Positions 1,035-19,735 of a DNA stretch of 24,324 nt are shown piece by piece. Within the stretch, counting starts at the first letter, position 1, and each line of letters begins with the position of its first letter. The position numbers and the translations under genes are program-made. The notes under the pieces were generated by a model. It did not search any database, had not been told where the DNA came from, and worked only from the letters and a program-made list of their open reading frames with translations. Source of the DNA: a virus; the IMG/VR virus record IMGVR_UViG_3300044695_001980, positions 1-24,324 of that record; one strand, written 5' to 3'.

Positions 1035-1562
1035 TTAGTTTAATATATTAAGACTCTTTCCTGCTTCTTTAAATGATTTGATAAATACACTTTCGTATTC
1101 TATCAATTCATCTGTAGTTATACCTTCAAATTGTGCTACAATACCCAATTCATGTTTATCAGGTCCCCACTTATCAAATGAGTCATGCAACAAAGGTAAT
1201 CGTTTTTTTAAGTTTCTATTACTTAATCTCCAATGAGATAGATGTTCACTCCATCTAACTTTGAGATGACACTCTGTTCTACCGATGTAAAATGCCTCAT
1301 CAGGTGACTTTATAAAATATATGGTTCCTAATTTATTGGCTTTTCTCCATCTACTAACTATCTCAACTACTCTAGGTGCATTATCCTTTTGCCAAATGGA
1401 ATGATGTGTAGGATTGATTTCGGTTCTGAATTTGTGATTATCAATCTTATTGCAAGATTTGCATTTAAATTGGAGTCCATCACCTGTTTTTCTGTTTTTA
1501 GAAAATTGTGTAGTAGGTAAATCTCTTCTGCATCCTCCGCAGTACTTTGTGTGTGTTGTCAT
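1035..1562 (-). CDS. GIY-YIG endonuclease with N-terminal zinc-ribbon-like motif
   Basis: The 175-aa product has two parts. Residues 8-37 hold CGGC and CKSC (C8, C11, C34, C37) around a basic, glycine-containing stretch, a zinc-binding layout common in phage nucleases. Residues 79-160 fit the GIY-YIG nuclease fold: GTIY at 79-82, YIG at 92-94 followed by RT, the expected catalytic arginine in KVRW (R103), a nearby histidine (H107), and a glutamate in LIEYESVFI (probably E157) for metal binding. It is probably a free-standing homing endonuclease, or less likely a repair or recombination nuclease. No intron is visible. A second out-of-frame ATG lies 10 bases upstream, inside a repeated ACAATGAC context. 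Its own promoter is at 1628-1658. Confidence 0.85.
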   Translation of the reverse strand: MTTHTKYCGGCRRDLPTTQFSKNRKTGDGLQFKCKSCNKIDNHKFRTEINPTHHSIWQKDNAPRVVEIVSRWRKANKLGTIYFIKSPDEAFYIGRTECHLKVRWSEHLSHWRLSNRNLKKRLPLLHDSFDKWGPDKHELGIVAQFEGITTDELIEYESVFIKSFKEAGKSLNILN

Positions 1563-1666: not shown

Positions 1667-1703
1667 AAAAAAAGAGCTAGGACAATGACGAACCCAGCTC
1701 TTT
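1667..1703 (-). terminator. Intrinsic terminator ending the replication transcription unit
   Basis: In the leftward transcript, AAAGAGCUGGG (1703-1693) pairs with CCUAGCUCUUU (1681-1671). That is 11 continuous pairs including one G-U, followed by a run of seven U (1673-1667). The corresponding pair on the rightward strand would be A-C, so the structure is better in the leftward RNA. The 11-base loop (1692-1682) contains GUCAUUGU, complementary to the start regions of the next two genes (see findings). Confidence 0.85.
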
Positions 1704-1716
1704 ATTATATATGTAA

Positions 1717-1782
1717 AAATACAGGAGCACTGAATATAAAATGGCACATACTAATTCAGTATTAGATTAAGCTCCTGTATTT
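1717..1782 (-). ncRNA. Long hairpin in the 3' untranslated region of the replication unit
   Basis: AAATACAGGAGC (1717-1728) and GCTCCTGTATTT (1771-1782) form a perfect 12-bp stem. Inside it, ACTGAAT (1729-1735) and ATTCAGT (1754-1760) form a second 7-bp stem with an 18-base loop, leaving a one-sided 10-base bulge (1761-1770). It lies 35 bases beyond the stop of the 63-aa gene and 13 bases before the terminator stem. It could stabilise the 3' end, be the body of a small RNA released from the 3' UTR, or be a protein-binding site. Strand is assigned from the surrounding transcript; the stems themselves are symmetrical. Confidence 0.55.
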
Positions 1783-1817
1783 GTATTAACAACTATTGTT
1801 TGGATTGTAGTTGTTGA

Positions 1818-2009
1818 TTAAAGTTTAAAGTAACGATACCATTCAGTTGTATTTTTAGCTAATTCATGTCCGAACTTTGCATCTTCTGATAATTTGAAAT
1901 TAGGGTCTACAATTATTTCATCTTCTACTTTTTTTGTTTTCCTACTACTTTCAGTAATTTCTGTAATTATTTCTGCAAGAAAATCTTGTCTCTGTAATCT
2001 ATTATCCAT
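1818..2009 (-). CDS. Small acidic hypothetical protein coupled to the replication gene
   Basis: The 63-aa product is not recognised. It is rich in Glu, Lys and Thr (LAEIITEITESSRKTKKVED), probably helical in the first half, and ends with an aromatic NTTEWYRYFKL tail. Its start (2009-2007) overlaps the last 8 bases of the replication-protein gene, which indicates translational coupling and a shared early role. It is the last gene before the 3' hairpin and terminator. It could be a replication accessory or regulatory protein, but nothing in the sequence proves that. Confidence 0.65.
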   Translation of the reverse strand: MDNRLQRQDFLAEIITEITESSRKTKKVEDEIIVDPNFKLSEDAKFGHELAKNTTEWYRYFKL

Positions 2010-2823
2010 ATATTCCGTTTTTATATTGTTGTAACTTATTCTTAAAATTATTTTGTGCTGATGTATTATTAGGTAAATACAACTCTATTAAATTATCAAA
2101 ACCACCATAATCTTCATCTACTTCTCTCATTACTGATTGAAACTTAAATCTACTATTTACTGCAATAAACTTATCAATAACTCTTTCTAGCATAGGTCTA
2201 GTTATTTCATAATCTGATTTATCAATTATAGAATCAACTTCAGTATTAGGTATTTCAGGTAAAGGTTCAGCACTATATACAGCAAGTAGTTTATTCTTAT
2301 CTGTCAACTCTCTACTCTCTACTCTAAACTCTCTACTCTTTACTCTCTTCTCTGGTTGAGTTGTGTTGATAGGTTGTTGAATTCTGTTGAACACCTGTTG
2401 AACACCTGTTGAACTATTGTTAGATTGTTGTTCTAATTCTTTTGCTAATCTTTTAGCTTCTGCACTAGCTTGTCCTGCTCTTGATTTATCACCAATCATT
2501 TTAATATAACCTTCCTCTCTTTCATCTAATTGTTCTACAATAGTTGCGTGTGTAAGGAAATTATCATCAGTAACAATAAAACACATATTAATTACATCTT
2601 CAACCATTTCAACTGAATCACCTAAATTATATGCAATTACATCTATATCATATTCTAATAATCCACCACTTTCGTAAATAATTTCACATAGTTGCCAGAA
2701 TACACCAATAGGTGCTGATGATTTCCATTTCATCTTTAATCTAATTAGTTTCTTATCTTCCCTACTACGGAAATCATGTTTGAACCAATTTTCTTTTTCT
2801 AAAAACTTATATTGTTTTTTCAT
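2002..2823 (-). CDS. Replication-type protein with Lin1244/Lin1753-like N-terminal domain
   Basis: With the start at ATG 2823-2821 the product has 273 aa and begins MKKQYKFLEKENWFKHDF. The pattern W-F-x-H-D-x-x-S/R-R-x-D-x-K, then APIGVFWQLCEIIYESGGLL, then an acidic helix and a KSRAGQASAEAKRL stretch matches the Lin1244/Lin1753-like (DUF4373) N-terminal domain found in phage and plasmid replication proteins of the DnaD/primosome type. A low-complexity Gln/Asn/Ser linker follows, then a C-terminal helical region with a conserved-looking DYGGFDNLI. It probably binds DNA at the origin or loads the helicase. An in-frame ATG at 2862 would add 13 residues, but it lies inside the leader hairpin, so 2823 is preferred. 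Confidence 0.75.
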   Translation of the reverse strand: MKKQYKFLEKENWFKHDFRSREDKKLIRLKMKWKSSAPIGVFWQLCEIIYESGGLLEYDIDVIAYNLGDSVEMVEDVINMCFIVTDDNFLTHATIVEQLDEREEGYIKMIGDKSRAGQASAEAKRLAKELEQQSNNSSTGVQQVFNRIQQPINTTQPEKRVKSREFRVESRELTDKNKLLAVYSAEPLPEIPNTEVDSIIDKSDYEITRPMLERVIDKFIAVNSRFKFQSVMREVDEDYGGFDNLIELYLPNNTSAQNNFKNKLQQYKNGIYG

Positions 2824-2830
2824 ACTGAAT

Positions 2831-2879
2831 AAAAAAACCCATCGAAACTGAATCTCCCACATTCAGTCTCTTTGGGTTT
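2831..2879 (-). terminator. Terminator-like hairpin directly before the replication gene (attenuator candidate)
   Basis: In the leftward RNA, AAACCCA (2879-2873) pairs with UGGGUUU (2841-2835). After a 2x2 internal loop, GAGACUGAAU (2870-2861) pairs with AUUCAGUUUC (2853-2844), closing a 7-base loop GUGGGAG. A run of seven U (2837-2831) overlaps and follows the stem. One pair is G-U in this RNA and would be A-C in the other strand, so the leftward RNA is favoured. The stem ends 11 bases before the AUG, where a terminator would cut off the gene unless relieved. Confidence 0.6.
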
Positions 2880-2884
2880 AGTTT

Positions 2885-2897
2885 GGAATTAAATTCC
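2885..2897. repeat. Palindrome in the replication leader
   Basis: GGAATTAAATTCC is a perfect 6-bp inverted repeat around a central A. It may be a small operator or a minor hairpin between the two larger ones. No binding protein can be named. Confidence 0.4.
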
Positions 2898-2907
2898 GTT
2901 ATCTTTA

Positions 2908-2928
2908 ATATAGAGTGGGAGTCTATAT
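2908..2928 (-). other. Leader hairpin with 7-base loop complementary to the downstream loop
   Basis: ATATAGA (2908-2914) and TCTATAT (2922-2928) form a perfect 7-bp stem with the 7-base loop GTGGGAG on the plus strand (2915-2921), read as CUCCCAC in the leftward RNA. This loop is the exact complement of the loop at 2854-2860 in the attenuator-like hairpin. Confidence 0.65.
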
Positions 2929-2948
2929 CTTATTTCGAATTGTTGAAT

Positions 2949-2979
2949 CAAATATACTATAAGTTTTTCAAATTACCAA
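2949..2979 (-). promoter_or_regulatory. Leftward promoter of the replication unit
   Basis: On the minus strand, TTG (2979-2977), 20 bases, then TATATTTG (2956-2949) match the Bacteroidota consensus TTTG-N17-23-TAnnTTTG. Transcription would start near 2942, giving a leader of about 120 bases. Confidence 0.6.
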
Positions 2980-3070
2980 GTACTTCAGTAATTCTTTTTT
3001 CATAATACATTCTCTACTATATTAAATATGTAAACTCTTATCCAAACGAAAAGGAATGTTGAAATAATTT

Positions 3071-3085
3071 TGACAACTTGTGTCA
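3071..3085. promoter_or_regulatory. Dyad (operator candidate) over the rightward promoter
   Basis: TGACA-ACTTG-TGTCA has 5-bp arms and a 5-base centre. It covers the TTG element (3078-3080) of the rightward promoter, the position expected for a repressor site. The RHH protein encoded at 880-1026 is one possible ligand, but this is a guess. Confidence 0.4.
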
Positions 3086-3105
3086 GTTTGTATAAAATAT
3101 ATTTG
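3078..3105 (+). promoter_or_regulatory. Rightward promoter of the two small plus-strand genes
   Basis: TTG (3078-3080), 17 bases, and TATATTTG (3098-3105) match the Bacteroidota promoter pattern, divergent from the replication promoter 119 bases away. Transcription would begin near 3112, which argues against the GTG at 3111 as a start codon for the first gene. Confidence 0.55.
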
Positions 3106-3182
3106 AGAAAGTGCTAGGATATATCAGCGGAATTTCGTATGTTTGTAAGGTAATGAGAGTTCAACCCCTAAACCCCCCTAAT

Positions 3183-3356
3183 ATGAATACTATCACCGCT
3201 TCCGATTTCCTATCAAGAAAGAGACAAACCATCCTAGATGAGATTGCATCACAAAAAGAGATGTTATCCTATTGGGGACATATTGCTGAAACCGCAAAGA
3301 ACATCCAATTTAGGATATCCGAATTAGAAAAATCACTTGAAAACTTAAATAAATAA
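3183..3356 (+). CDS. Small helical hypothetical protein (divergent early gene 1)
   Basis: From ATG 3183 the product has 57 aa and is not recognised. It begins MNTITASDFLSRKRQTIL and is almost entirely predicted helix with a likely short coiled coil at the end (FRISELEKSLENL). An in-frame ATG at 3153 would add ten residues (MRVQPLNPPN). The choice is uncertain because neither start has a strong ribosome-binding context; the C-rich stretch before 3183 is unusual. It is one of only two genes on the plus strand in the window, and its divergence from the replication gene suggests a regulatory or takeover role. Confidence 0.6.
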   Translation: MNTITASDFLSRKRQTILDEIASQKEMLSYWGHIAETAKNIQFRISELEKSLENLNK

Positions 3357-3382
3357 AACTTAAAACTTAAAACAACAAAGTT

Positions 3383-3538
3383 ATGGAAAAAGTAGAATTA
3401 GTACTAAATGTAGACAATATTTCTGATGAACTTTATCAGTTAATATTAAATGAGTTTATCAAAAAATCAGAAGAAATGGGAATTGATTTTGATTTATATG
3501 ATGACCAGCAATGGGAAATTAAATGTAAATTATCTTAA
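3383..3538 (+). CDS. Small acidic hypothetical protein (divergent early gene 2)
   Basis: A 51-aa frame, MEKVELVLNVDNISDELYQL and onward, lies 26 bases after the previous stop, behind an A-rich leader (ACAACAAAGTT) of the kind used for initiation in Bacteroidota. It is acidic (DFDLYDDQQWEIK near the C-terminus), has no cysteine pairs or membrane segment, and is not recognised. It ends 12 bases before the terminator region, so the plus-strand unit contains exactly two small genes. It is short enough to be missed by length filters. Reality is supported by codon use, spacing and the following terminator. Confidence 0.6.
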   Translation: MEKVELVLNVDNISDELYQLILNEFIKKSEEMGIDFDLYDDQQWEIKCKLS

Positions 3539-15370: not shown

Positions 15371-18300
15371 TTATGAATTGTTTATAATAAACCATCCTAC
15401 TGTATCTGCATCATTTGCTCCGGTTGATTCAATTGTGAATGTTCCTGCTCCTTTTGATGATATGGATACCGATGCGGGTGTTGTATTACTTTGTTTAGTT
15501 AACATTATAATACTATTAGCAGTTACTAATGAATTACTTACTACAACTGTAGCAGGAATTGTACCGCTTAATACTGCAGTTCCTGCTTGTTGATTACTAC
15601 CTGTTGGTAATGTTAATTGTGAGCCAGATGATATTTTAACACTACCTGTCAATGTTGTAGGTGCTACTAATTGTACAGCACTACCACCACCATTACCTAA
15701 ATCATATTCAAAAAATAATGGAACACTTCCTCCACCACCGTTGTATATATTTGTAACAAAGCTACCTGTCTGATTTGATTTAACCAATTGTGAACCATTT
15801 ACACTTGCACTACCAGTTACTGATAAAGAGCCAGTTATACTTTGATTACCATTAAATACATTTGAGCCTGTAGTTGCAAATGAACCTGTATTGATTGTTC
15901 CTCCACTAAATGATGAAGTTGCTACGGTTGTAGTTCTACCATTACTATCCCCTACTAAAACAAATCCTTGTTGTAGTGAAGCAGTTAGATTTCCAGTCAT
16001 CCTAACTGAACCAGTTACATCCAAATCTTTTAATATAGTTACTTGACCTCTTTGGTAATCAGAGTATGGTTGGAACTTTATTGCGTTTGCGTAATCACTT
16101 ACATTAGGGTTATAATCTTGAATATAAGAGCCGCTACCATCTATAAAGAATGCAATTGCTCCCTCATTATTAAATATTTCTTGTCTGTATGTCTGAAGTC
16201 CCTCCTTAATTATTGAAAAAGTGTTCAAATTCAAATCCACAGAATTACTTCCGGAAGTAAGGTCGTATCCACTTGAACGGAGTGATGATGTAACATTATT
16301 AGTTCCACGTATTACAACTGAAGTTCTACCAATTGTATTGTTAAAATCACTACCACTAATAATCAATTGTGGTGTTTCACCTGTTATAGGACCAGTAATC
16401 AATGCTCTTCCTTGTATAGTTAAATCAAACTCTGATGAACCTGATATGGATACTGAACCCGTTATAGTTTGATTACCAATGAATGTGTTTGAACCTGTTG
16501 TTGCAAATCCTAATGCTGTTATTTGTGATGAGCCTGATATTGTTCCAGCAGGTGCTGAAGCAGATGCAGAAACTGTCAAATCAAATGTTGATGCATCTCC
16601 CTTTGTAAAGGTTATTACGTTAACATTAACACTTGCAGTTACTAATAAACTACCTGTATTGGGTGTACCTGAACTCGTTACTTGAGATAATACAATTAAA
16701 TTACTATTACCTTCTACTACTATACTCCCACTAACTGCAACCGGTCCTACTAACATTGCGTTATTGCCAGTTGGTATAGTAAACCCATTAAGGGTTTGTG
16801 GGTTGATATACACTTGTGATTTTATTGTCTCACTTACTGAAAGGGAACCAGTGATTACTGCAGAACCAGAGAATGGAAATGCACTACCACTACCACCTCC
16901 ACCACTACCCGTAGCGACTGTCAAACTAAATGTAGATGCATCTCCTTTAGTAAAAGTTAGTACATTACCACTAACACTACCAGTCACCATAAGTGAACCT
17001 GTATTTATTGTACTTCCACTTACGGTTGTAAATGATAAAATACCACTACCATTAGTAGTTAGAACTTGTCCATTTGTACCATCAGTATTTGGATATCGTA
17101 ATCCTTGTATAGTTGTATTAGAACCTGATATTGTTACATCAGCTCCATATCCAAAAACGTCAATACCACCACCTGATTTTGCAGATATTTTACCACCTGA
17201 ATTTGGATTAGGGAATGTATTGTATGCTTCCAAAGTAGCGGAAGCAACTCCACCACCATAAAGTGTTCTCATAGAAAACGAACCACTTTCTCCTGCATTT
17301 ACTTGCAATCCAGTAAATCCAGAAGGAGTTCCTGAATCCAATGCTTGTATCGTTGGACCTAAATTTGTAGTTCCTACTAATAATTGTTGTGAATATCTTA
17401 TTGAACCTGTTATATTCTGGTCACCATTAAATGAGTTCGAACCAGTAGTTGCAAATGAACCTGTATCTATTGTACCACCTCCACTACCCGTTGGTAATGT
17501 TACATTGAATGTAGATGCATCACCTTTAGTAAATGTTAATGTAGTTCCACTTACACTTGCAGTTACTAATGCCAAACTTGCAGAAGTAAATAGGGATGAT
17601 GTAGCAGAATTTATATTAGTAATAGATGTATTTACACTTGCACTATTAGTATTCAAATTACTTATCGATACTAATGCAGATGCACTAAATGTATTTAATT
17701 CAGTTATTGAATTTACAATACTCGCAGTAGATTGAGATGCAGTAAATACATTTAAAGCATCAATACTGATTTGTTGTGATGCGGAACTTGCATTCAAATT
17801 ACTTACCGAAGTATTAAGTGATGCGGTAGTTGAATTTAAATTCGATATAGAGGTGTTTAAGCTCTGCGTAGTGGAGTTTAAATTACTGATTGATACATTT
17901 ACACTCGCCGAATTAGATTCCAATGAATCAACTCTTTGATTAGTAGATGAAGTGTATGCGTTGAAAGATGCAGTAGATACAAACGATGCAGTTGTGATTT
18001 CAATAGGTTGATTGTTTGCTCCACCTACCCAAAGATATCCTGCATCTAAACCTGGTAATTGTGCAGGACCTGGGTTTAATACCAATCCTTTTCCACCATT
18101 ACCACCTTTAGTTACTACTCCTAATAATTGAGTAACTGAATTACTACCTGACGGTAAACTAGCTGACCAACCTCCACCTTCTGCTACATATATTGTTTGT
18201 CCTGCAATATATCCAGTCAAATCAATTCCTTCTATTAAACCTAATACGATTGCTTCTGTTGTGTTTGCTGCTCCAATAGTTTCATTTGATACAAATGTTA

Positions 18301-19735
18301 CAGGCATCTTATTAGGGTCTGCCGCATCTGCTTTGAATACTCTTGGATTAGCACCTTGTGAGCCACTAATATATAATGGGTCACCTTTTGTTATACTCTC
18401 ACCTGTATATACTACTTCAACTATAGTTGTTCCTACACTTCCACTAACATCAGGTATTACTACACCGAATGTAGTACCATTACCTTTTGTAAAAGTTAAA
18501 GTTCCAGCTGCAAATGATGCAGTAGTTAAACCTAAACTTGCTGAAGTAAATAGGGATGATGTAGCAGAATTTATATTAGTGATAGATGTGTTTACACTAG
18601 CACTATTTGCTTCCAAAGAAGTTACTCTTTGATTGTTAGATGAAGTATATGCATTGAATGATGAAGTAGTTACTAATCCACTAATATCAACTGATGATGT
18701 TAATACAGGTGTTCCATTAACTGTCAAACTACCTTGCACTTTAACACTACCAGATAGAGTTTGTACATCACTCAACTCATCACCAAACTGATTAGAACCA
18801 GAAGAATAGATTACAGATGAACTTTCAAATATTGTTTGTAAGTAAGTAAATGATGCAGAAAATGCAGTTATGTTACCTGTAATATTTTGATTACCAATAA
18901 AGTTGTTACTACCAGTTGTTGCGTATGAACCAGTTTTATCTTGCAAGCTATCTATCTCACCTGCTAATAGTATATTTACACCTTCTTGCGATTGTGTAAA
19001 TGTATTTAACGCATTTATACTAATCTGTTGAGATGCAGATGATGCATTCAATTGAGATATAGATGAATCAGTAGATGCAGTATATGAATTAAACGAAGAT
19101 GTGGTTACAAAACTACCTGTGTTTATTGTACTTCCACTAACATCAGGAATGTTTACATTAAATGTAGTATTGTTTCCTTTTGTAAAAGTTAAGTTACGAG
19201 TACCATTATCAAATGATGCAGTGATTAAAAACGAACCACTCTCTGTTTCAGTTACATAAGATGAAGTTGCTGCATTTAAAGCATTTATACTAACTTGTTG
19301 AGATGCTGAACTTGCATTTAAATTAGAAATTGATACTAATGCCGATGCACTAAACAATTCTAAATTTTGTGTTTCAATTAATAAACTTGCAGTTGCTGCT
19401 TCTAAAGAACTTACTCTTTGGTTATTAGATGCAGTATATGAATTAAACGAAGAAGTTGTTACTAAACTTCCTGTATTGATATTAGTCACTAAAGATGATG
19501 TTGCAAATGCAGATGTTTTTCCACTTGCATTACCTACATAGATGTGTCCTTGTTGTAATGATGCAGTTAAACTTCCTGAAAGGAATAAATCTCCTGCATT
19601 ATTTACTTCAATACCGATAGAATTTCCATATCCATCTTGTAAAGTAGTTAAAGAGGATGTTATGGTAGAATTAGTCCCTAAATGAATTAGAGATTGAAAA
19701 CTTTGTGAAACATAGAGGTTACTTAAATTACCCAT
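15371..19735 (-). CDS. Long repetitive tail fibre protein
   Basis: The 1454-aa protein is built from recurring blocks. One is a FTKG-x-x-T/S-T-F motif in five copies (about residues 182, 415, 735, 930 and 1045). Another is the cassette TGSN-x-F-x-G-x-Q-x-I-T-G in four copies. Others are TTSSFNSYTASNNQRVSSLE and heptad-like SNLNSTTASLNTSVSNLNAS runs, typical of trimeric coiled-coil fibre shafts. Residues about 437-578 form a different beta domain (GESITKGDPLYISGSQGANP). The C-terminal 70 residues (GTAVLSGTIPATVVVSNSLV to VGWFIINN) resemble the conserved tip domain of aquatic phage fibres and are the likely receptor-binding end. The upstream neighbour is the tail-terminator gene; the downstream neighbour is the neck-gene remnant. 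Confidence 0.85.
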   Translation of the reverse strand: MGNLSNLYVSQSFQSLIHLGTNSTITSSLTTLQDGYGNSIGIEVNNAGDLFLSGSLTASLQQGHIYVGNASGKTSAFATSSLVTNINTGSLVTTSSFNSYTASNNQRVSSLEAATASLLIETQNLELFSASALVSISNLNASSASQQVSINALNAATSSYVTETESGSFLITASFDNGTRNLTFTKGNNTTFNVNIPDVSGSTINTGSFVTTSSFNSYTASTDSSISQLNASSASQQISINALNTFTQSQEGVNILLAGEIDSLQDKTGSYATTGSNNFIGNQNITGNITAFSASFTYLQTIFESSSVIYSSGSNQFGDELSDVQTLSGSVKVQGSLTVNGTPVLTSSVDISGLVTTSSFNAYTSSNNQRVTSLEANSASVNTSITNINSATSSLFTSASLGLTTASFAAGTLTFTKGNGTTFGVVIPDVSGSVGTTIVEVVYTGESITKGDPLYISGSQGANPRVFKADAADPNKMPVTFVSNETIGAANTTEAIVLGLIEGIDLTGYIAGQTIYVAEGGGWSASLPSGSNSVTQLLGVVTKGGNGGKGLVLNPGPAQLPGLDAGYLWVGGANNQPIEITTASFVSTASFNAYTSSTNQRVDSLESNSASVNVSISNLNSTTQSLNTSISNLNSTTASLNTSVSNLNASSASQQISIDALNVFTASQSTASIVNSITELNTFSASALVSISNLNTNSASVNTSITNINSATSSLFTSASLALVTASVSGTTLTFTKGDASTFNVTLPTGSGGGTIDTGSFATTGSNSFNGDQNITGSIRYSQQLLVGTTNLGPTIQALDSGTPSGFTGLQVNAGESGSFSMRTLYGGGVASATLEAYNTFPNPNSGGKISAKSGGGIDVFGYGADVTISGSNTTIQGLRYPNTDGTNGQVLTTNGSGILSFTTVSGSTINTGSLMVTGSVSGNVLTFTKGDASTFSLTVATGSGGGGSGSAFPFSGSAVITGSLSVSETIKSQVYINPQTLNGFTIPTGNNAMLVGPVAVSGSIVVEGNSNLIVLSQVTSSGTPNTGSLLVTASVNVNVITFTKGDASTFDLTVSASASAPAGTISGSSQITALGFATTGSNTFIGNQTITGSVSISGSSEFDLTIQGRALITGPITGETPQLIISGSDFNNTIGRTSVVIRGTNNVTSSLRSSGYDLTSGSNSVDLNLNTFSIIKEGLQTYRQEIFNNEGAIAFFIDGSGSYIQDYNPNVSDYANAIKFQPYSDYQRGQVTILKDLDVTGSVRMTGNLTASLQQGFVLVGDSNGRTTTVATSSFSGGTINTGSFATTGSNVFNGNQSITGSLSVTGSASVNGSQLVKSNQTGSFVTNIYNGGGGSVPLFFEYDLGNGGGSAVQLVAPTTLTGSVKISSGSQLTLPTGSNQQAGTAVLSGTIPATVVVSNSLVTANSIIMLTKQSNTTPASVSISSKGAGTFTIESTGANDADTVGWFIINNS
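17574..17647 (-). repeat. 74-base direct repeat within the long fibre gene (copy 1)
   Basis: It matches 18534-18607 at 70 of 74 positions, 960 bases away, and encodes the SITNINSATSSLFTSASL block. DNA identity this high within a fast-evolving fibre suggests recent duplication or gene conversion. Confidence 0.8.
18534..18607 (-). repeat. 74-base direct repeat within the long fibre gene (copy 2)
   Basis: Partner of 17574-17647, in the same reading frame and orientation. A crossover between the two would remove exactly 320 codons and keep the frame. Confidence 0.8.

Follow-up and report, generated by a model that had tools for sequence, protein, structure and literature searches.

The window (the whole 24.3-kb stretch of DNA analysed here) is a phage record whose structural genes run leftward, and it carries on the minus strand a replication initiator gene with its ATG at 2823. 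The relatives align from MKKQYKF onward; the alternative start in the ORF list, at 2862, falls within a hairpin. Upstream of the ATG is a leader of ~110–120 nt carrying hairpin A, a middle mini-hairpin and hairpin B. The features are given here in the order of transcription, where class I denotes the window's leader and those aligned with it.

2949–2980, minus strand: leader promoter, with CTTG (2977–2980), a 20-nt spacer and TATATTTG (2949–2956), a case of a conserved TTTG-N20-TATATTTG-like pair
2908–2928, minus strand: hairpin A, RNA 5'-AUAUAGA-CUCCCAC-UCUAUAU, loop at 2915–2921; from the fold, with stem covariation at 5 of 7 pairs
2898–2908, minus strand: linker UUAAAGAUAAC from hairpin A to the middle hairpin, conserved in the class I alignment
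2885–2897, minus strand: middle mini-hairpin GGAA/UUCC, from the fold (GAAC/GUUC instead in the relatives L058, L059 and L106)
2835–2879, minus strand: full hairpin B, made of an outer stem, an internal loop and an inner 10-bp stem, with double changes at 7 of 10 inner-stem pairs
2854–2860, minus strand: hairpin B loop, RNA GUGGGAG, kissing partner of 2915–2921
2831–2837, minus strand: U-run (A7 on the plus strand) abutting the outer stem, the putative terminator tail; a U-run is found in all class I members
2002–2823, minus strand: replication initiator gene, 273 aa, Lin1244_N-like just below the Pfam cut-off and a PHROG replication initiation protein

Three neighbouring regions of the window can be described briefly. 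Upstream of the leader a small ORF runs divergently (3111–3356, plus strand); no family was found for it, and it goes with an 11/12 sigma-70-like match, TTGACA-N17-TAAAAT, at 3070–3098 on the plus strand. The gene at 1035–1562 (minus strand), downstream of the initiator gene, encodes 175 aa that are Cys-rich at the N-terminus and include a GIY-YIG nuclease domain. The product of 15371–19735 (minus strand), 1454 aa long and rich in Ser/Thr, contains internal repeats of several families and is probably a tail-fibre-like structural protein.

An earlier, sequence-only reading of this DNA had described two 7-bp hairpins with 7-nt loops that are exact reverse complements, both in the leader of the replication gene, and this description holds. 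In plus-strand letters, hairpin A is ATATAGA-GTGGGAG-TCTATAT (2908–2928) and the core of hairpin B is ACTGAAT-CTCCCAC-ATTCAGT (2847–2867), each stem without mismatch, and both precede the minus-strand ORF at 2002–2823. Also correct was the extension of hairpin B to 10 bp in the leftward RNA (2844–2870), which proceeds through a U-G pair. Still further out, 2873–2879 pairs with 2835–2841 to form the outer stem AAACCCA/UGGGUUU. To that description we add that hairpin B forms the tip of a larger structure, resembling an intrinsic terminator, a short way upstream of the start codon, that the middle mini-hairpin and linker are conserved, that a TTTG-N20-TATATTTG promoter lies upstream at a near-fixed distance, and that the leader precedes several unrelated families of replication initiator.

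The leader fold has a minimum free energy of −30.9 kcal/mol (z −4.2), equalled by none of 200 shuffles. Nowhere else in the 24.3 kb is there a pair of hairpins with 7-bp stems and complementary 7-nt loops within 150 nt of each other, and none of 60 dinucleotide shuffles contains one; when stems are relaxed to at least 5 bp, this is still the sole such pair in the window, and 2 of the 60 shuffles have one.

Four homologous loci of the initiator gene share the leader but with other loops, CUCGUAC/GUACGAG in L001 and GUGAGAU/AUCUCAC in L002–L004. Further leaders were gathered by scanning viral contigs for the linker, where 8 of 28 matches were due to chance and had no leader architecture, and 91 loci of initiator relatives were fetched by protein alone, avoiding selection for the RNA. 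A script detected the loop pair upstream of the gene in 13 of these 91 loci; about 14 more were recognised by eye, including members of a second class (below), and several of these were later confirmed by script. Most other protein-fetched loci have no leader directly before the gene, and often show a close preceding gene or a contig end.

The class I alignment (A5) comprises 17 distinct leaders, with the kissing helix entered as a pseudoknot. Pairing is found in 93.9% of cells, and 22 of 32 pairs are changed on both sides. The covariation score is 0.560, against 0.179 in shuffles, and none of 500 shuffles reached the observed value of any measure; sliding the partners by 1–3 columns as a control lowered pairing to 34–45%. 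In the kissing helix, all 105 cells of the 15 in-register leaders are Watson-Crick, over nine loop pairs; L058 and L059, whose rows are out of register, carry further complementary loop pairs. The distance from loop to loop is near-constant, 60–62 nt. Covariation between the loops of relatives had been proposed as the check on a loop-loop contact, and it is extensive; a search of the relatives for uncompensated loop changes, which would have spoken against the contact, turned up none. Evolution gives the predicted kissing contact strong support.

About half of the scored class I leaders have a TTTG-N20-TATATTTG-like pair 14–18 nt before the aligned leader start, and most of the remainder have, by eye, TATATT with an upstream TTTGG. 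A conserved promoter upstream of hairpin A agrees with the earlier reading. The promoter presumably follows the Bacteroidota-type consensus, which suggests Bacteroidota as the host phylum. Across class I leaders no antisense promoter is conserved, the best scores being at background, and the class I stems hold 22 G-U cells on the gene-sense strand versus 1 A-C cell, which identifies the folded functional molecule as the gene-sense RNA. On both counts, each an indirect test, the earlier suggestion that the leader is the target of an antisense copy finds no support. The same 22-to-1 imbalance, together with an orientation fixed between promoter and ATG, argues against a DNA element, namely a replication origin with cruciform-forming inverted repeats; the leader does adjoin an initiator gene, as such an origin might, but we consider this very improbable.

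The end of hairpin B has the anatomy of an intrinsic terminator, a G-C-containing stem followed directly by a U-run, and it is the sole such site in 1700–3500, where 0.4 were expected. In classes I and II alike no gap separates the U-run from the G-C outer stem, and the ATG lies 11–25 nt past the U-run start. Some members have short U-runs (UUUUUAAU) and may terminate only weakly. Inspection by eye showed no conserved antiterminator pairing that could replace the terminator stem. A generic scan of all loci for loop complements proved too permissive (358 unique hits versus 350 in reversed sequence) and was replaced by a terminator-based test covering all loci gathered by then. Of 217 terminator-like hairpins that have an ATG no more than 40 nt away, 28 have an upstream complement of at least 7 nt to the apical loop, where ~5 were expected from permuted upstreams, an excess that mainly confirms classes I and II because many of the 28 belong there and some loci were fetched by the leader. 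For terminators with no ATG nearby, the figure is 8 of 227 versus ~6 expected. These patterns bear on whether hairpin B might act at the level of translation or mRNA stability, insulating the start-codon region or guarding the 5' end with no termination involved. It does stop just short of the ATG, and the U-rich stretch there could aid initiation; the abutting U-run is nevertheless terminator anatomy, and the loop-complement enrichment is restricted to terminator-like sites before genes, so that we judge such a role quite unlikely.

Class II leaders have the linker AUUAAAGAU after hairpin A, in the same place as the class I linker. They differ from class I in a longer A loop (~12–15 nt), in lacking the mini-hairpin, and in the 8–9 nt that pair with the B loop. 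Ten 8-nt cores were found (CACUUCAC, CUCAUCAC, UGCUUCAC, GUCUUCAC, CUCUUCAC, CUUCUCAC, CGCUUCAC, CAUCUCAC, CCUUCAAC and CCUCUUAC), each with its exact complement and set in a nearly invariant background. In the class II alignment (A7, 16 leaders) every kissing-helix cell is paired and 4 of 8 pairs are doubly changed, the whole-structure covariation score was reached by none of 500 shuffles, and loop spacing is 52–56 nt in most. The leaders of L161 and L166 have only 3 differences in 90 nt, and two of these make up one compensatory loop pair; over their first 246 nt, the genes behind them share 84% identity.

A third leader class is likely represented by L112, L117, L118 and L119. L117 (2690–2790) and L119 (2696–2795) have a longer A loop and, in the terminator hairpin, a long stem, with compensated loop changes (GUAGAAG/CUUCUAC versus AUAGCAG/CUGCUAU) and a small gene between leader and initiator. 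Tandem leaders, suspected in these two from weak matches to search model R1, were absent when the sequences were read. We treat L033, L122, L139 and L140 as candidates only, because ~5 such matches are expected by chance. In L033 (6600–6750, minus strand) a class II-like leader with CUUCCAC/GUGGAAG precedes an unknown 60-aa gene, on a contig fetched by a chance pattern match. Terminator-shaped hairpins whose apical loop matches an upstream hairpin loop were also seen on the plus strands of L124 (~1009, UAACGGA/UCCGUUA), L141 (~2401, GACGAGU/ACUCGUC) and L142 (~2880, GGUCGUAC/GUACGACC), each a lone case that came out of a noisy scan. Each phage record has one leader; no second one was found in any phage, weaker opposite-strand matches to model R1 being shadows of the one site. 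By eye, the YUNR U-turn motif is not conserved in the loops. Two clear classes and the additional candidates apparently constitute an RNA family undescribed so far.

In almost every member the gene directly after the leader is of an initiator type. The family stands before replication initiators, in phages known mainly from metagenomes. The downstream types are Lin1244_N, DUF6291, DnaD-like loaders, DUF1376-like primosomal proteins (weak) and HTH_36 / O-like proteins, with some matching no model. Several unrelated initiator families downstream indicate that the leader moves between initiator genes, and any factor reading the linker is therefore unlikely to be a single one of these initiators; since the linker is kept while the downstream family changes, a host factor or a widely shared phage factor may read it. 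A scan of genome contigs for the linker gave only chance matches inside genes, and model R1 matched none of 399 Flavobacteriales genomes, which is weak evidence given strict filters and no positive control. In Flavobacterium phage 1/32 the initiator homologue sits inside an operon, with no leader directly before the gene. The position before initiator-type genes and the terminator-shaped end also weigh against a structural or packaging RNA; one RNA with two complementary loops might form oligomers by A-to-B loop pairing, for which phi29 pRNA is the comparison, and we find this hardly credible here.

Despite the differing downstream families, the linker UUAAAGAUAACGGAAG and the mini-hairpin are the most conserved part of the leader, as would suit a riboswitch-like sensor in which the kissing contact builds a pocket and the linker binds a ligand or protein signal. 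Loop-loop contacts scaffold known riboswitches, e.g. the purine class, and a sensor of this kind would be compatible with an attenuator, as the attenuator's sensor. However, the downstream genes have no metabolic theme, the conservation of the linker is inflated in part by its having served as search query, and no Rfam riboswitch matches the leader: with the window and ten member loci, none of the 4227 models of Rfam release 15 scored above its gathering cut-off, and sub-threshold matches were at chance level (E 2–5). We regard a ligand- or protein-sensing role as unlikely.

Taken in order, the promoter, hairpin A, linker, terminator-shaped hairpin B and start codon are, as read from the sequence, the anatomy of an attenuator. 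We accordingly favour, with a probability of roughly 0.6, a cis-acting 5' leader RNA that serves as a transcription attenuator of the initiator gene, its terminator hairpin coupled to hairpin A by the loops. Sequence and evolution together establish the sense-strand RNA, its stems, its loop-loop pairing and the position of its terminator-shaped end. RNA polymerase would start at the conserved promoter and transcribe hairpin A, then the linker and mini-hairpin, before hairpin B, whose outer stem and U-run would form an intrinsic terminator immediately before the gene. Pairing of the hairpin A loop with the terminator-hairpin loop would physically couple the first-made hairpin to the terminator, and the near-constant loop spacing of classes I and II favours such an intramolecular contact. 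This coupling would set the frequency at which polymerase continues into the gene. We infer that termination takes place and that the kissing contact alters it; as to direction, an early contact could impede closure of the terminator or could stabilise it. The leader would in this way control expression of the replication protein, and, if it is a true attenuator, the loop of its terminator hairpin has a conserved pairing partner within its own leader. Against the attenuator count the short U-runs of some members, the lack of a conserved antiterminator on inspection by eye, a kissing contact that is compatible with a closed terminator, and loops that change faster than stems, which is not expected from a purely cis role.

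The rates of change for close pairs, which are phylogenetically non-independent, are 0.286 for the kissing helix versus 0.040 for stems in class I, and 0.250 versus 0.123 in class II. Between L010 and L013, 5 of 7 kissing pairs are changed versus 2 of 25 stem pairs, and the L161/L166 differences include the compensatory loop pair described above. The class I kissing helix has no G-U, while stems can pass through G-U. Loops outpacing stems is as expected of specificity determinants, such as those of plasmid compatibility (PMC9458437), and leaves room for a role in trans. Terminated leader RNA might accumulate with phage copies, its loops pairing with other nascent leaders to report dosage or distinguish self from non-self; the pairing would tune termination or block a related co-infecting phage, with the loop sequence deciding recognition, as in plasmid incompatibility or P4 CI immunity. 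Several facts make this a tentative proposal of rather low probability. A conserved linker and almost fixed spacing fit better with pairing inside one molecule, and in a free leader such pairing would keep both loops occupied. Each record has a single leader. Faster loops may be neutral, given other constraints on stems. Prophage immunity of the P4 kind seems unlikely in these phages, since a PF00589 integrase is found in none of 24 member records, many of them fragments, and in 14 of 14 control genomes. We see the trans self/non-self role as a serious but unproven extension of the cis attenuator. Conceivably, at rather low odds, a widespread natural code of orthogonal loops marks the replication-gene leaders of phages as self; sibling or competitor leaders would recognise each other and set expression of the replication gene, and the loops would diversify as specificity determinants. 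Loop diversity in any case bears on whether RNA lets phages detect copies of themselves or their relatives.

We found no description of such a leader in the open-licence literature. The leaders of pT181 (repC) and pIP501 (repR) have an intrinsic terminator before the replication gene, and the phage leader resembles them in this, in its place before a replication gene, and in recognition through hairpin loops. Their pairing partner is a separate antisense RNA, whereas that of the phage leader is the terminator hairpin of the same sense RNA, with no conserved antisense promoter. Loop and stem swaps in pT181-type attenuators give orthogonal variants (PMC3753616). The loop diversity of the phage leaders is likewise a ready natural set of parts, probably orthogonal.

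P4 CI (c4) likewise involves the leader of a phage replication operon and complementary segments within it: transcription ends prematurely when CI RNA pairs with seqA and seqC (PMC4825925). P4 uses a processed RNA acting in trans in the lysogenic state; in the leader described here, by contrast, two hairpin loops make the contact and their spacing is almost fixed, and the c4 model gave no match to the window or ten member loci in the search with the whole Rfam library.

The sequence-only reading had drawn a parallel with ColE1 RNAI/RNAII, whose kissing loops are 7 nt long and fully complementary. It stands for loop size and loop variability and fails for mechanism: in ColE1, sense-antisense loop pairing controls a primer, whereas here both loops are in one sense RNA, with a putative terminator before a protein gene. 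Purine and guanidine-II riboswitches share with the phage leader an intramolecular loop-loop contact in an mRNA leader. Their kissing-loop sequences are largely conserved around the ligand site, whereas the phage-leader loops are hypervariable and without Rfam match. In ColE1, altered RNAI/RNAII pairs make compatibility groups (PMC9458437). The many different loop sequences of the related phages, matched in every case, suggest that phage replication genes have an RNA switch not described before. It would be distinguished by pairing two hairpin loops of one sense leader, the terminator hairpin included, an arrangement that, to our knowledge, none of its near relatives (pT181, P4 CI and ColE1) has.
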